DNA of 37,202 nt from positions 1 through 37,202 of IMG/VR virus record IMGVR_UViG_3300042549_006321; one strand, 5' to 3'. The position numbers were made by a program, and so were the translations under genes. Positions 1 to 37,202 of the stretch are shown piece by piece (the stretch's first letter is position 1; every line of letters begins with the position of its first letter). Source of the DNA: a virus. Under the pieces are notes generated by a model that saw nothing but the letters and a program-made list of their open reading frames with translations, did no database searches and was not told the DNA's origin.

Positions 1-423
1 CGCGCATGTCGCGCACGATGCCATAGCGGTTGTTGTCGCGGTCGATGTAGCAGGATTGAGCCACAATCGGGTTGCAGGGGCGCTTCTTGTCGTCAACGTA
101 CGGGGAAACCCCGTAAGCCAGCGTCCCGCCAGAATGGAACACGCAACGGCGCCACTCCGAGCCCTCGCGGTGGTACATCTCCACCACCATGACCCGGCGC
201 TTCTTCTTGTCCACCCATGACACAGTCGAGGAGGCGTCCTGCGGGCGGTCTTGGTTGAGATCGTCGATCAGAGCGCCGCTGTCGGTTAGAGAGCCCTCAA
301 CGTCGGTCTTCGCATCCGGGTACATGCGGATTACGTCGTCGGCGTACTGCCACTTGGCGACGCCCATGTAGCGAGCGTCTGAGAAGTCTTCCCGACGCGA
401 CCGAGGATCGGCGAAGAACTCCT
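1..423. repeat. Terminal repeat copy A (imperfect, matches 36780-37202)
   Basis: This segment aligns without gaps to 36780-37202. I count 20 mismatches, all between positions 62 and 296, and every one falls on the third base of a portal codon and is silent. The last 127 bases (297-423) are identical in both copies. This is the circular overlap of the genome, with the two copies representing two sequence variants. Confidence 0.95.
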
Positions 424-898
424 CGGAGGCGATCTCCTGCATGGTGATCTGGAGGTCTTCGTCGGCCTCCACAATGGCCGCACAGGTGCCCCTGATGAGG
501 TAGTCCCGCGCCACGCTGATCTTCAGGTCATCGAAGCGGTTGCGGTCCGCGATGAACTGGAGAACCTTGGACGCAACGTCGGCGCTGTCCTCGTCCTTCG
601 GGGTGCGGGGATAGGCGCGAGGGTCGGTGGCGCCCTGCTTCAGAACACCCAGCGTCCCGTTCACAGCCGGCCGCACGCGGTTGATCACGATGTCAGGCTG
701 GCCGCGCTTGGCGAGTTCCGCCTTCTCTTCGCGGGTGAGCTGGTTGCCGTTGTAGTAGTCGTCGTCGATTTCAGCCTGGCGACGAGCGAACTCGGTGAGG
801 TCCATCGCGTCACGGTACATGGACCGCAGTTCGGCGATCTCCGGGGCCTTCGGGCCTTCGGGCTCGGGTTGAACGGCAGGAGTTACGCCACCTTCCAT
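1..898 (-). CDS. Portal protein, N-terminal half (cut by window edge)
   Basis: This is the first 299 codons of a P22-type portal protein, the dodecameric ring at the DNA-entry vertex that docks terminase and tail. The start ATG (896-898) follows an AGGAGA ribosome site and overlaps the end of TerL by 16 bases. The translation shows features typical of P22-like portals: an acidic EIDDDYYNGNQLT stretch, then INRVRPAVNGTLGVLKQG, then a segment with ARDYLIRGTCAAIVEAD. The frame runs off position 1 and continues exactly in frame at 36780 if the ends are joined. The joined protein would be about 639 residues, close to the size of the family. Bases 1-423 of this half are also present, with only silent differences, at the other window end. 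Confidence 0.9.
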   Translation of the reverse strand, partial: MEGGVTPAVQPEPEGPKAPEIAELRSMYRDAMDLTEFARRQAEIDDDYYNGNQLTREEKAELAKRGQPDIVINRVRPAVNGTLGVLKQGATDPRAYPRTPKDEDSADVASKVLQFIADRNRFDDLKISVARDYLIRGTCAAIVEADEDLQITMQEIASEEFFADPRSRREDFSDARYMGVAKWQYADDVIRMYPDAKTDVEGSLTDSGALIDDLNQDRPQDASSTVSWVDKKKRRVMVVEMYHREGSEWRRCVFHSGGTLAYGVSPYVDDKKRPCNPIVAQSCYIDRDNNRYGIVRDMR

Positions 899-2175
899 GA
901 AGTCTCCTGCGGTTTCGGCCTGCCCCACAAATCAGGTGGGTTCTTGGAAGGGGTTTCGGGCGTCTGCTTGACCGCGCGGCGTAGGCCCTCGCAGGCGTAG
1001 CGCAGGGCGTCGATCACGTGGTTGTTCTTGTCCTCCAGAATGGGGAGGATCTCGTCTGTCTGCTTGTCGGTCTTGAAGCTGTAGTGGGTCAGCTCGTCGA
1101 TGGTGTGCTTGCACCTTGGGTGCACAACAATGTCGTAGCTCTTGAGGAACTCGATGCCGTCTTCCACGCTCCCCGGTCCCTTGACTGCCGGGATAATCTT
1201 GAAGCCTTTGCGCTGCATGAAGCTGACCGTTTCCGGCCTGGCGCTGTCAGCGCGGATGGTGAACTTGCGGCTGCCTGGGATGGTGTCGAACAACGCTGGA
1301 GTAGCGTCGATCTCGCAGCCCACCTTGTAGGCCTCTTGGTCAACGTACAGCGTGCGCCCGATGATGTAGGCGCGGATGAGGACCGTGGGGTCTATCGAGA
1401 AGCCCCAGTCGGCCCCGAACCTGAACACCGCCTCCGGGTGGGTGTTGAACGCCTCGACCTTCCAGTTGCGGAAGACGGCGGCCTCGCCAAGCTTGGAGTA
1501 CTCACCCTCCCAGACGTGGAGGTACTTGTCGAAGTCGCGGCGCTTGTCGCGCTCCATATCCTTCCGCAGTTCCTCGGGAAACCACGGGTTGTCGGTGTAG
1601 TTGGCCTTCACGCAAACGAAGTCTGGATCGTCCGCGTTCTCGTTGAAGAAGGCCTCAATCGGATCGTTGGCCGATCCAGGGTTCCAACTGAACCACATTT
1701 CCGAGCCCGGCGCCCGGAACGTCGGGGTGGCGATGTTCAACGACTTCTGGCTGATCGTCTGGGCCTCTTCGACCCAAGCCCGGTTGAAACCCTCCAGCGA
1801 CTTGATGCTGGTTACGGTGTGGTTCTGCAAGCCCCGGAAGATGAAGAGGCTGTCGTTCGGCCCCCTGATCTCCGTCTCGGTGGATCTGAACAGGTGGCGC
1901 ACGCCGAGCCTGTCAATCTTGTCCTCTATGAGCTGCTTAACGCTGTCCTTGATCGAGTTCTGGACTTCACGCAGGCAAGCGGCCCGGATGTGAGACGCTA
2001 CGGCCTGCTCAACCAGGCACTCAGCGAAGAAGTGGCTCTTGCCCGATCCGCGCCCGCCCTTGGCCCCCTTGTAGCGTCTGGGGTGCAACAGGGGCAGGTA
2101 GATGCGGGGGGTCGGTATCTCAAGGATCGACAACCGTGCGCCTGATCTCTGAGATGCCGGCCTCAATGGTCGCAT
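883..2175 (-). CDS. Terminase large subunit (TerL)
   Basis: ATPase-nuclease motor that packages phage DNA into the procapsid, acting at the portal. Walker A is GGRGSGKS (residues 40-47), Walker B is AWVEEA (about 133-138), and an SWNP motif follows at about 163. The C-terminal RNase H-like nuclease domain shows acidic residues in GADWGFS (about 254), IRADSARPE and NHVIDALRYA. The layout is of the Terminase_3/PBSX type. The ATG at 2175 gives 430 residues but overlaps TerS by 56 bases with a poor ribosome site. A TTG at 2133 gives 416 residues and a 14-base overlap, and is an equally good or better start because homology begins near LSILEIPTPRIY. The gene ends 16 bases inside portal. Confidence 0.95.
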   Translation of the reverse strand: MRPLRPASQRSGARLSILEIPTPRIYLPLLHPRRYKGAKGGRGSGKSHFFAECLVEQAVASHIRAACLREVQNSIKDSVKQLIEDKIDRLGVRHLFRSTETEIRGPNDSLFIFRGLQNHTVTSIKSLEGFNRAWVEEAQTISQKSLNIATPTFRAPGSEMWFSWNPGSANDPIEAFFNENADDPDFVCVKANYTDNPWFPEELRKDMERDKRRDFDKYLHVWEGEYSKLGEAAVFRNWKVEAFNTHPEAVFRFGADWGFSIDPTVLIRAYIIGRTLYVDQEAYKVGCEIDATPALFDTIPGSRKFTIRADSARPETVSFMQRKGFKIIPAVKGPGSVEDGIEFLKSYDIVVHPRCKHTIDELTHYSFKTDKQTDEILPILEDKNNHVIDALRYACEGLRRAVKQTPETPSKNPPDLWGRPKPQETSWKVA

Positions 2176-2392
2176 CCAGTTCCACTGCCTGCGTCGGCTT
2201 ACCGTGCCCTCGGTCGAGAATGGCGGATGCTGCCGAGACGCGAGCGGCGGCAGGCATCTGCGCGTTTCGCATGATGGTCGCCAACGTCTCGACCGCCTCG
2301 CTGGTGTAGGCCTGTGCTGCCGTCTTTACGTCAGCCGTGGCCTTGTTCGGCGTACCCTTAACTCTGCCGCCGGTCTTGACGCCTTTGGCCAT
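2120..2392 (-). CDS. Terminase small subunit (TerS)
   Basis: A 90-residue protein directly before TerL and overlapping it, the position of the DNA-recognition subunit of terminase. It begins MAKGVKTGGRVKGTPNKAT, a basic N-terminus common in small terminase subunits of alphaproteobacterial phages. A helical segment with AARVSAASAILDRGHGKP follows, typical of that family. It is the first gene of the long leftward late operon; the next gene upstream runs in the opposite direction. The call rests on position and recognisable sequence style rather than on a catalytic motif. Confidence 0.75.
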   Translation of the reverse strand: MAKGVKTGGRVKGTPNKATADVKTAAQAYTSEAVETLATIMRNAQMPAAARVSAASAILDRGHGKPTQAVELDATIEAGISEIRRTVVDP

Positions 2393-2514
2393 CTATCTCG
2401 CTCTACTTTAGATAAAAGGTTTCGCCCGCGATCTGCTGCTTGGGTTACGACTGTGCGATGGTTGTCAGTAGTCGGGGCGAAGGGTGTAGGGATGGCGGAA
2501 AAAACCTGCACAAT

Positions 2515-2557
2515 CCCTGTAAATAGGTGTTGACGTTACAGGGAAACCCTGTAGATT
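2515..2557 (+). promoter_or_regulatory. Rightward promoter with palindromic operator
   Basis: A -35 element TTGACG (2530-2535) and a -10 element TAGATT (2552-2557) lie 16 bases apart. The spacer is almost filled by the perfect 15-base palindrome ACAGGGAAACCCTGT (2538-2552). A further CCCTGT half-site lies at 2515-2520, facing the ACAGGG arm. A repressor bound there would block this promoter, which would drive the genes at 2604-3389. The rest of the 2393-2603 intergenic space should also hold the late leftward promoter for TerS, but I could not pick a convincing one. Confidence 0.6.
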
Positions 2558-2603: not shown

Positions 2604-2819
2604 ATGATCCAGATGACCGAAACCGCCACCGGCCCCGCCTTCCAAACCATCGCTCGCGGCGTCAGCTACTACCTTCGCACCGACGCGCTGGGCCGTTTCG
2701 AGCTGAGCAGCAAGCGCCTCGCGATGTCCACCATCGGTCAGGTTCGCCACTTCAAGACGCTCGCCGAAGTCGAAGGCGCGGTTAAGGCGTTCCAAGGCCT
2801 CTCGGCCCTCCTGAACTAA
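2604..2819 (+). CDS. Small hypothetical protein
   Basis: A 71-residue protein of unknown function beginning MIQMTETATGPAFQTIARGV. The start at 2604 follows an AAGGAC ribosome site, which is better supported than the in-frame ATG at 2556 that lies within the -10 region. The sequence is mixed alpha/beta with no catalytic motif, signal or membrane segment. It is the first gene after the operator-containing promoter and is followed after 10 bases by the next gene on the same strand. Confidence 0.7.
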   Translation: MIQMTETATGPAFQTIARGVSYYLRTDALGRFELSSKRLAMSTIGQVRHFKTLAEVEGAVKAFQGLSALLN

Positions 2820-2829
2820 GGGGCCGGCG

Positions 2830-3153
2830 GTGATCGTCCCTCACGAGGAACGGGTTTCGCCGTGGCGCCCCTTCGGGCACTACGGCAAGACCCATTATCG
2901 CATTCGCCAGCGCCTCACGCTGTTTGGTATGTTCCAGCGCCATGAATGGCTAACCGAAGGCGGTACGCAGGAGTGTGACCGTTGGATACGCGGCAGCGGC
3001 CTGAACTGGGTCTCCGAGGCCAGCGCCACGAACGACCCCGCCTTAGACGAGGCGGGCGTATTGCTTCGCGCCATTCAGCGTATCGCCGATGGTCACAACG
3101 ACCCGCGAGGCCTCGCTATCGAAACTCTTACCCAGATCGGAACCGAAGCATGA
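2830..3153 (+). CDS. Hypothetical protein
   Basis: A 107-residue protein starting with GTG at 2830, a few bases after an AAGGGG purine run. It is rich in aromatic and basic residues in the first half (HYGKTHYRIRQRLTLFGMF) and acidic toward the end. I do not recognise a family. Its stop overlaps the ATG of the following HTH gene by four bases, so the two are probably translationally coupled. Confidence 0.65.
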   Translation: MIVPHEERVSPWRPFGHYGKTHYRIRQRLTLFGMFQRHEWLTEGGTQECDRWIRGSGLNWVSEASATNDPALDEAGVLLRAIQRIADGHNDPRGLAIETLTQIGTEA

Positions 3154-3389
3154 CCCCCGACCAACTCCGAGACGCCCGCGCCACCCTGGGCGCTATGTGG
3201 GGCCTTGGCCGCCCGCTCCAGATGAGCGAGATGGGCCGGGCCTTGCGCCTGTCTGGGCGCGATCCAGGGGCCTCGATCCGTGACTACGAACGCGGGACCA
3301 CCCGAATTAGCGGGCCCATGTCCGTAGCCGTCGATATGATGCTTTCCGGCGCCCTGCCCCCTGATGGGCTGGATTGCCTGAAGCCGTAA
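3150..3389 (+). CDS. Small helix-turn-helix (XRE-like) DNA-binding protein
   Basis: A 79-residue protein that looks like a compact Cro/XRE-type domain: MSEMGRALRLSGRDPGASIRDYERGTTRISGP. The arrangement LxLSG...IRxYExGxxxISGP matches a common small HTH family of proteobacteria and their phages. It starts with ATG at 3150 in an ATGA overlap. As the last gene of the cassette controlled by the palindromic promoter at 2515-2557, it is a reasonable candidate for the protein that binds that palindrome; this is inference. Confidence 0.7.
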   Translation: MTPDQLRDARATLGAMWGLGRPLQMSEMGRALRLSGRDPGASIRDYERGTTRISGPMSVAVDMMLSGALPPDGLDCLKP

Positions 3390-3428: not shown

Positions 3429-3569
3429 ATGGGCCTACGCGCATGTTCGGGGAGGAACGACCGGCGCGGTTTGAATGGCATGTTTCGGGATTGGGAGGCG
3501 ACAAGCGCCCTGGCGCGTGCTGGTGAAGGTCACGCCCGTCGCGTGGTCAGGGGATCAGAAACCCCCTAG
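3429..3569 (+). CDS. Possible 46-residue small ORF in the 3390-3618 gap
   Basis: The 229-base space between the rightward cassette and the end of the leftward early operon holds one possible small gene. The ATG at 3429 lies about 10 bases after a GGAGGGAG ribosome site, and the frame stays open to TAG at 3569. The product is arginine-rich with no recognisable domain. Nothing else in the gap is convincing: a weak GGGG/CCCC inverted pair near 3550-3567 lacks a T run. Treat as unproven. Confidence 0.25.
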   Translation: MGLRACSGRNDRRGLNGMFRDWEATSALARAGEGHARRVVRGSETP

Positions 3570-3618
3570 ACCCGCTGTATGTTGTATAGGTGATTTGGGG
3601 AAGGCGCAAGGGGTGGTG

Positions 3619-3912
3619 TTAGGCCTGCCGTAAAGGCTCTCGCTCCCACCCGACAACGCGAAGCCTTTCTCTCGCTGGGATAGGGCTGGCGAGAACTGCG
3701 CTTTCGTCCGCTGCTCTGATAACCATTCCAAGGTACTGCTGCGGCGGCATCATGGCCATATAGCCCAAGTAGTCCCGGTAGTCGTCAGCGGTGAGGTCGA
3801 GGCGCGACGGTGACAACCCGCGCTTCAGCATATTGCGCCGCGCGTCGGCGATGAGTTGGTAGATGTCTTGTTTCTTCGCTTTGGCGACAGGAGCTTTGAT
3901 CAAGCCGAACAT
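3619..3912 (-). CDS. Hypothetical protein, last gene of the leftward early operon
   Basis: A 97-residue protein (ATG at 3912; a GTG one codon earlier at 3915 is an alternative). The N-terminus is basic (KAPVAKAKKQ), followed by a helical segment with ADARRNMLKRGLSPSRLDLT and then an acidic, aromatic stretch. No family recognised. It overlaps the stop codon of the NusG-like gene as TGATG, so both are made from the same transcript and it could act with NusG. Confidence 0.65.
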   Translation of the reverse strand: MFGLIKAPVAKAKKQDIYQLIADARRNMLKRGLSPSRLDLTADDYRDYLGYMAMMPPQQYLGMVIRAADESAVLASPIPARERLRVVGWEREPLRQA

Positions 3913-4442
3913 CACGCCGCTTCCTCCAGGCTTTCAACCTCAGCCTTGCTCACCGTGGTCCGTGGCTTGAGCGGGCCGGTGGTCTCAACCTCCACTTTCC
4001 ATTCGCGCTTGTTCGCAGCCCGAAGGATCACCGCCATTCTATCAGCGAAGGCTCCGGTTACAATGCGGATGCGGTCGCCGGGCTTGGCCTTCGTGGATCG
4101 GTCAATCGTGCTGTCGAAGTCGCCCCGCTGCTCCTGCTCCCGGATGCTCTCGACCCACCCGCCACCGATGCAGGCCAGCTTCCGGTCACCCTGCGGGGTG
4201 TATCCACAGGTCAACACCCCCGTCACCCCATCGCAGGTGTCGATGTAGCGTTGCTCGTCAGGCTCGTTGAGGCGGAAGAACACATAGCCGGGGATGATCG
4301 GGGAAGACACCGGCACCTTGCGAAGCTGGAGCTGCTTCCACCTGACCTTCTGGGGGTAGTAGGCTTCGATCCCGATGGTCTGGAGGTCATGGGTTGCGGC
4401 GGGTTCTTTTCCGCTTCGGACTACGGCGACGTGCCAGGTCAT
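3912..4442 (-). CDS. NusG/RfaH-type transcription elongation factor
   Basis: A 176-residue NusG paralogue. The N-terminal NGN domain starts MTWHVAVVRSGKEPAA and contains IEAYYPQ and the SPIIPGYVFFRL strand-helix typical of NusG-type proteins. The C-terminal KOW motif is AKPGDRIRIVTGAFADRMAV (about 119-138). NusG-type factors bind RNA polymerase and change pausing or termination; RfaH and LoaP act on particular operons. The ATG at 4442 has a near-perfect AAGGAGGT ribosome site and an ATGA overlap with the preceding gene. It is next to last in the early operon, shortly before the late operon, which is where lambda places its Q antiterminator. Confidence 0.88.
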   Translation of the reverse strand: MTWHVAVVRSGKEPAATHDLQTIGIEAYYPQKVRWKQLQLRKVPVSSPIIPGYVFFRLNEPDEQRYIDTCDGVTGVLTCGYTPQGDRKLACIGGGWVESIREQEQRGDFDSTIDRSTKAKPGDRIRIVTGAFADRMAVILRAANKREWKVEVETTGPLKPRTTVSKAEVESLEEAA

Positions 4443-17351: not shown

Positions 17352-17380
17352 AAAAGGCCCCGCCGTTTCCAGCGGGGCCT
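17352..17380 (-). terminator. Terminator of the late leftward operon
   Basis: AGGCCCCGC (17355-17363) and GCGGGGCCT (17372-17380) form a 9-bp stem with an 8-base loop. AAAA before it gives a UUUU run on the leftward transcript, so it ends transcription coming from the Rz1 gene. Rightward it may act weakly. A GGTAATTACC palindrome lies at 17417-17426. Confidence 0.75.
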
Positions 17381-33812: not shown

Positions 33813-33869
33813 TGAATAGGCCCTTTCAGAAAGACGGGCGACCCGTAGGCCGCCCTAGTTGTTGTGAGA

Positions 33870-35757: not shown

Positions 35758-37202
35758 TTACGCTTGGCCCTGCGGAACGCCCGTTTGTTGCCCGGCGGCG
35801 GCATTCATCGCGTCAAACTGGGCCTTTTCGGCCATCATTTGCGCGTTGAACTCTGAGAGGTTTTGCTGCCGGTCGCCCAAGGCGGCGCGGTGCATCTCGG
35901 TCTCTGTCTTGGCTTGCGTCAGTTCCGTGTTCGCCTGCTTGTTGGCGATCTCGGCCTGCTTCAAAGCGGCTTCCAGCTCGACCATCTGCTGTTGAAGCTG
36001 GACGACCTGTTGCTGGGCCTGTCCGCTCTCGTCAGCCTTGGACTTCATCTTGTCCATGATCTCCCGCTTACCGGGGAGGCTGGAGAGGCTGACCATCAGT
36101 TCAAACGGAACCGCCTGGGGGCCGTAGACCTTGGCAAGCTCTGCCATGACGGCGAACTGTTCCTGAGCGACGTTGGCCGTGTTCGGCGTGGTGTCGAGGA
36201 TGATGTCCACATCCATTTCAGCAAGGCTGTTCTCATACCCCAGGATCACCGGCTGACCCGTCATCGGATCGGCCATCGGTTGGCCCGTCATGGGGTCTTG
36301 AGCGACCTTGGGCTGGTTGATGCCCACGAACTGCGGAGCGCCCTCGTCGTCGGTGACGCGGACGTACTGCGGCGCCGTCCAGAACTGGCGAGCCCGGTTC
36401 CACATCTGCTCGTAGACGCGGAGTTCCCAAATCTCGACGCCGCCGTAGACGATGGCCTGTTCCGTCAAGCCAGCCTGTTGCCTGACCAAGTTAGCCCGGC
36501 CCGAAGCGTTCTCGCCCTCACGACCCAGCACAGCCGGGTTGGGGCCGATACGCTCAATCTCCATCTTGGCTTCCACCAAGAGGTTAGCCTGGCCGGCGGC
36601 CATGTCCGTGGTCGGGACCTTCTGCCAGCCGTAGGGGATCACACCATCAGGGCGAGCCGCTTCCTTGCGGGCCGTGCCGCTGTCCACTTCGACAGCCGAG
36701 GGATCGACCGCCTGGATCTGGCTGGCGTTGATCAGGTGAAGCAGCTTGGAACGGCGCTTGTTGATCTCGTCTTGCGGCCCGCGCATGTCGCGCACGATGC
36801 CATAGCGGTTGTTGTCGCGGTCGATGTAGCAGGATTGAGCTACAATCGGGTTGCAGGGCCGTTTCTTGTCGTCAACGTAAGGGGAAACGCCGTAAGCCAG
36901 CGTGCCGCCAGAATGGAACACGCACCGGCGCCACTCCGAGCCCTCGCGGTGGTACATCTCCACCACCATCACGCGGCGTTTCTTCTTGTCCACCCACGAA
37001 ACGGTCGAGGAAGCGTCCTGCGGGCGGTCCTGGTTGAGATCGTCGATGAGCGCGCCGCTGTCGGTCAGCGAGCCTTCAACGTCGGTCTTCGCATCCGGGT
37101 ACATGCGGATTACGTCGTCGGCGTACTGCCACTTGGCGACGCCCATGTAGCGAGCGTCTGAGAAGTCTTCCCGACGCGACCGAGGATCGGCGAAGAACTC
37201 CT
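35758..37202 (-). CDS. Portal protein, C-terminal part (cut by window edge)
   Basis: Continuation of the P22-type portal, ending at 35758. Visible are MDREMRGPQDE-like text (DMRGPQDEINKRRSKLLHLI), a segment with NPAVLGREGENASGRANLVR followed by QQAGLTEQ, then VYEQMWNRARQFWT and VRVTDDEGAPQFVGIN. A DPMTGQPMADPMTGQPV repeat and a long C-terminal coiled-coil (QVVQLQQQMVELEAALKQAE) follow; the latter resembles the barrel of P22 gp1. The copy of 36780-37202 duplicates 1-423, so the joined gene should count this segment once. Confidence 0.9.
   Translation of the reverse strand, partial: EFFADPRSRREDFSDARYMGVAKWQYADDVIRMYPDAKTDVEGSLTDSGALIDDLNQDRPQDASSTVSWVDKKKRRVMVVEMYHREGSEWRRCVFHSGGTLAYGVSPYVDDKKRPCNPIVAQSCYIDRDNNRYGIVRDMRGPQDEINKRRSKLLHLINASQIQAVDPSAVEVDSGTARKEAARPDGVIPYGWQKVPTTDMAAGQANLLVEAKMEIERIGPNPAVLGREGENASGRANLVRQQAGLTEQAIVYGGVEIWELRVYEQMWNRARQFWTAPQYVRVTDDEGAPQFVGINQPKVAQDPMTGQPMADPMTGQPVILGYENSLAEMDVDIILDTTPNTANVAQEQFAVMAELAKVYGPQAVPFELMVSLSSLPGKREIMDKMKSKADESGQAQQQVVQLQQQMVELEAALKQAEIANKQANTELTQAKTETEMHRAALGDRQQNLSEFNAQMMAEKAQFDAMNAAAGQQTGVPQGQA
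36780..37202. repeat. Terminal repeat copy B (imperfect, matches 1-423)
   Basis: Second copy of the circular overlap. It is identical to copy A in its first 61 and last 127 bases and differs at 20 silent third-codon positions in between. The 127-base identical end equals a k-mer size common in short-read assembly, consistent with a contig that wrapped round a circle through a variant path. Confidence 0.95.

Follow-up and report, generated by a model that had tools for sequence, protein, structure and literature searches.

A phage-encoded NusG paralogue as a probable LoaP-like switch for late transcription

Genes for specialised NusG proteins such as loaP and upxY adjoin the operons that they target (PMC7819879). 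In the leader on which LoaP acts, an intrinsic terminator comes after a tetraloop RNA hairpin, and read-through depends on that hairpin; according to a 2025 paper, no NusG-like protein of bacteria other than LoaP is known to bind a specific RNA (PMC12691694). The antiterminator Q of phage lambda loads at a DNA element together with a sigma-dependent pause (PMC7171158).

The locus described here resembles that of LoaP, known from Bacillus velezensis and other Gram-positives, in that a NusG paralogue adjoins a long target operon and, in one type of leader (element C, below), a tetraloop hairpin is followed by an intrinsic terminator. Unlike loaP, the gene is phage-encoded and alphaproteobacterial, stands as the last early gene (next-to-last in the phage analysed here) and would drive virion genes, and its leader elements depart from the UNCG hairpin of LoaP, with element C having a GNRA or UACA loop and two more stems and element B being a bulged hairpin. 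Lambda Q, like the 21/82-type Q proteins, is matched in gene position and in proposed role, that of a last early regulator licensing one long late operon close to a terminator in the leader, but its fold is unrelated, lambda Q not being an NGN–KOW protein. RfaH is an NGN–KOW paralogue for long operons and is among the nearest solved folds to the phage protein, but it is encoded away from its targets and reads ops DNA, whereas UpxY of the Bacteroides capsule operons is encoded directly upstream of its target operon, as the phage gene is, but serves capsule genes and not phage late genes.

The window, by which we mean the whole stretch of DNA analysed, comprises positions 1 to 37,202 (37,202 nt) of IMG/VR record IMGVR_UViG_3300042549_006321. 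Its ends (1–423 and 36780–37202) repeat each other over 423 bp with 20 mismatches (95% identity), so the genome is circular, of about 36.8 kb, and nearly complete. The mismatches are spaced mostly by multiples of three and, judging from the sequence, the circle was probably closed by joining two strain variants. Because the genome is circular, the late unit continues leftward through the window ends, running for about 22 kb from terS (2392) across the join to an intrinsic terminator (17380–17355, minus strand). The genes and terminators concerned are the following.

3912–4442, minus strand: phage NusG paralogue (P0001), NGN plus KOW, 176 aa, ATG start; proposed late-operon antiterminator
3619–3915, minus strand: 98-aa ORF, last early leftward gene, overlapping the nusG stop
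2120–2392, minus strand: terminase small subunit-like gene (terS), first late gene (PHROGs scan)
883–2175, minus strand: terminase large subunit gene (terL; PHROGs scan)
35758–37146, minus strand: portal protein, C-terminal part, crossing the circular join into window positions 1–900
33836–33855, minus strand: terminator-like hairpin within the late unit (pattern match only)
17355–17380, minus strand: strong intrinsic terminator, end of the late unit

The nusG gene lies between the end of the early operon and the late operon, a position of the lambda Q type. It overlaps both of its neighbours, the upstream gene (stop at 4439) and the 98-aa ORF that follows, an arrangement seen in coupled operons; the 98-aa ORF has no family match and is missing in the short-leader relatives L004–L006. 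An earlier note had placed a complete NGN plus KOW protein in the penultimate position of the early leftward operon, ahead of a single late operon of about 21 kb and in a genome without recognisable Q or N. Our data bear this out: the ORF is real, the 98-aa ORF follows it, there is one late transcription unit, and a PHROGs scan of early genes gave no family resembling Q or N. Elsewhere in the genome (12943–13961, plus strand), a PTPS/QueD-like gene adjoins a queuine tRNA-ribosyltransferase-like gene, with Erf/Rad52, NinB, C5 DNA methylase and integrase genes as neighbours, a possible case of 7-deazaguanine modification of DNA or tRNA in a temperate phage.

P0001 comes from the record's single NusG-family gene. 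Its NGN domain passes the Pfam threshold for NusG (PF02357, E-value 2.4e-9, 38 bits against a cut-off of 22.2); the KOW domain is weak by sequence (0.0068, below the Pfam cut-off), and AlphaFold predicts an NGN plus KOW structure with a mean pLDDT of 84. The top PDB matches of this model in Foldseek are NusG and RfaH, and 8f5g ('NusG-RNA complex') is also among the matches. Residues 2–163 match PHROG 6386, 'transcription antiterminator' (1e-19), a sequence cluster that is also matched by a protein of L021 and that brings only a name here, with no cis element or tested role attached. This NusG-type cluster is the sole antiterminator PHROG hit, the lambda-type Q family giving no match. Against NCBIfam models the protein reaches neither the housekeeping NusG equivalog (26.9 bits, cut-off 135.7) nor LoaP (NF033641; 27.5 bits, cut-off 125), RfaH (TIGR01955; 40.6 bits, cut-off 144.5) or UpxY (NF033644; 66.9 bits, the best NCBIfam score, cut-off 100), and these shortfalls mark it as a specialised paralogue in a group of its own. 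In a tree it falls outside the housekeeping NusG clade. On sequence and predicted structure, P0001 is a member of the NusG/Spt5 superfamily, a specialised paralogue distinct from housekeeping NusG.

Random placement of homologues with respect to late operons would have told against the earlier note's reading of the gene as a late switch, and it is not what is seen. In all seven annotated phages carrying one (Bradyrhizobium ppBjS10J-1, Microcystis yong2, Agrobacterium Rivra, Nostoc Nsp-JY10, Sinorhizobium phi3LM21, Rhizobium PPF1 and Labrenzia V1), the homologue comes last or next to last among the early genes, ahead of terS–terL, often with a small HNH or other gene between it and the terminase; for ppBjS10J-1 the terminase is inferred, as the genes there are annotated 'hypothetical'. 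Of 50 records inspected, ten had come from a NusG search and the rest from a TerL search; nusG was present in ten of the 50. In near relatives without it, a protein of 190–225 aa, weakly DUF6456-like or unassigned, occupies its slot (3472–4065 in L016, 6137–6814 in L019, 8793–9368 in L020 and 3032–3625 in L022); these proteins are candidates for alternative late regulators. That such relatives manage without the paralogue is a point against its being the late switch. Searches with the A1 query found no close relatives in genome contigs or in 240 genomes of the class, and an IMG/VR scan with the phi3LM21 NusG found no relatives. Matches in the phage collection included gut, Enterococcus and Listeria records; one gut record (L307) was rejected as a phage nusG because it is a Bacteroides capsule locus. 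The L142 genome (Martelella; loci L291, L295 and L297) encodes three phage-type NusG paralogues plus the housekeeping gene.

Among close relatives of the window phage, the stretch between nusG and terS can be as short as about 310 bp or as long as about 2 kb. Only two pieces of it are common to all of their leaders: element A, which adjoins the end of the early operon, and element B, which lies just in front of terS.

3575–3621, minus strand: element A, conserved over about 47 nt immediately 3' of the last early gene
3541–3575, minus strand: hairpin directly 3' of element A, without a U-tract
2421–2482, minus strand: element B, a 62-nt bulged hairpin about 30 nt 5' of terS

Element A is a possible late promoter, although its function is not shown and a promoter scan found no sigma-70 consensus there. 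Element B, which falls within the region (2393–2603) that the earlier note had proposed for reporter assays and is the most conserved leader element in it, has invariant arms and a variable apical loop of 27 nt in the window, with a folding z-score of −3.5 (−2.7 and −4.6 in two divergent copies). When 2.9 million IMG/VR viral contigs were scanned for its exact pattern, ten contained it, of which nine have the nusG group and the tenth ends at B. Element B is retained in L002 and L003 with an unrelated TerL (32% identity), and in L001 and L005 with a terS of about 35% identity, whereas nusG-less relatives with 81% TerL identity show a signal no greater than that of shuffled sequence; B therefore tracks nusG and not the terminase. 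In L011 the arms are intact and the NGN coding DNA is 63% identical to that of the window. The copies are few, most of them from closely related phages, and with invariant arms B shows no covariation, so that recognition as DNA is equally possible. Element B is a candidate for the site at which the NusG paralogue is recruited, without binding data. On its late strand, the window leader contains no intrinsic terminator of canonical form.

Two further observations concern this region. A promoter-like site at 2530–2557 (plus strand), with the palindrome TTACAGGG-AA-ACCCTGTA, precedes three small rightward genes (2604–3389) inside the late leader. Separately, in P0001 and its homologues in L004–L006 the KOW half comes in two swapped types, against a near-constant NGN half and a near-constant element B.

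Rivra, Nsp-JY10, phi3LM21 and PPF1 share a different leader structure, element C. Its core pattern, which contains nothing about nusG, matched 51 bacterial contigs, all from Hyphomicrobiales, and at least 120 viral contigs, giving at least 171 loci from sequence alone. Among the 171 matches listed, 163 of 163 testable loci have nusG immediately upstream, within 400 nt and in the same orientation, the remaining eight contigs being cut within 110 nt upstream; in the 131 loci checked first, the distance was 82–178 nt in 127. Downstream, terL follows within 0.7–2.8 kb in 119 of the 171 (contigs without it mostly end too early), and the TerL proteins have their best matches to six query terminases, that is, six lineages among the matches listed. 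A search with an unbiased model of C in 297 Hyphomicrobiales genomes found nusG at both of two strong matches and at none of six weak ones. A model of C has no match in the window, and neither B nor C matches Rfam at the gathering threshold, the only hit being a tRNA in L099.

The stems of element C are paired in 92.8% of cells, and 79 cells are changed on both sides, compared with 27 ± 7 in shuffled and at most 24 in slid controls; kinship among the sequences inflates such counts, but the slid control preserves relatedness. At the variable pair of stem 1, where the search pattern fixed the 3' side as A or G and left the 5' side free, the 5' partner follows the 3' base (CG 49, UA 20, UG 7, other 1). 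Of the 171 matches listed, 126 have a GNRA tetraloop and 35 a UACA one, the pattern having constrained only the last base of the loop. Judged from these alignments, such loops together with compensatory pairs are the mark of an RNA. A terminator-like hairpin follows within 100 nt 3' of C in 106 of 128 loci, compared with 10 of 128 controls, and in nearly all of the 106 its stem begins 6–26 nt after C; the other 22 loci keep C without a recognised terminator. In L138, L152, L181, L200, L231 and L238 no terminator follows, and the ATG in the GCTATG tail of C could start the next gene. NusG proteins of the C-type phages share only about 20–30% identity, whereas the RNA core is nearly unchanged, and the RNA may therefore be read in part by something more constant, such as RNA polymerase or host Nus factors.

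The earlier note had also suggested looking for a pause or ops-like DNA site in the leader, and recognition of DNA in the manner of RfaH is the rival that we take most seriously, while still considering it unlikely. It would accommodate the lack of an intrinsic terminator in the window leader, the invariance of the B arms, the higher score of P0001 against RfaH than against LoaP, and the GC-NNNN-GC core of element C, which recalls ops. Yet P0001 stays below the RfaH cut-off, B is a long hairpin with a long loop, unlike ops with its 12 nt, and the compensatory pairs and GNRA/UACA loops of C speak for RNA structure. The evidence thus favours an RNA structure over a DNA site for C, and leaves the two on an equal footing for B. 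It is improbable, in our estimation, that C and its terminator are merely the ordinary end of an early operon or a small RNA gene, with the NusG paralogue aimed at host genes during takeover. Terminators are ordinary at operon ends, and C ends close to the terminator stem in most loci; however, the 22 loci without a recognised terminator mean that C is not mere terminator context, the gene position before the late operon is common to unrelated phages, and genes for specialised NusG proteins, loaP and upxY among them, adjoin their targets (PMC7819879).

Sites for cos or pac packaging often lie upstream of terS–terL, as B and C both do, and the elements could in principle be such sites or other terminase DNA sites, with nusG adjacent by chance of gene order. 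We give this very little weight: C is common to the six TerL lineages among the matches listed and has covarying stems and an adjacent terminator, and B is kept alongside divergent TerL and terS and is absent from nusG-less phages with a similar TerL. These terminase swaps led us to reject the packaging reading of both elements.

We consider it likely that P0001 is a phage-encoded, LoaP-like processive antiterminator and a leader-recruited late switch. The comparative data strengthen the earlier note's proposal of a late switch in the Q position: computation establishes the gene, its fold, its position, the conserved elements and the strict link between element and nusG, while expression, RNA polymerase binding, element recognition, read-through and timing are inferred. 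The paralogue would be produced late in the early leftward transcript and would join RNA polymerase as the polymerase crosses the nusG–terS leader, recruited through hairpin B in the window phage and its kin, or, in most of the alphaproteobacterial phages of this type that were found, through the structured RNA C, which has an intrinsic terminator beside it. The elongation complex would then become resistant to pausing and termination, passing the leader terminator in the C type and downstream stops and pauses in the B type, so that the late operon of about 22 kb could be read to its end. The C-type mechanism is extended to the window phage, which has neither C nor a leader terminator, only by analogy.

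Beyond this phage, we lean, with less assurance, towards a widespread class of temperate phages in which the phage's own NusG paralogue and a structured leader RNA form an RNA-guided late switch in place of lambda Q. Its RNAs would fall into two or more unrelated classes (B and C), C being conserved enough that it may contact RNA polymerase or host Nus factors directly. No earlier description of such a system was found in Rfam or in the open-access literature searched, and the data point to late switching by NusG and RNA as a widespread and apparently undescribed mechanism in phages. Little is known about how late genes are controlled outside lambda-like coliphages, and the finding offers a concrete protein–RNA–terminator unit, at no fewer than 171 loci, in phages without a recognised Q. 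If true, it would extend the RNA-binding NusG mechanism beyond LoaP and would provide new orthogonal antiterminators.
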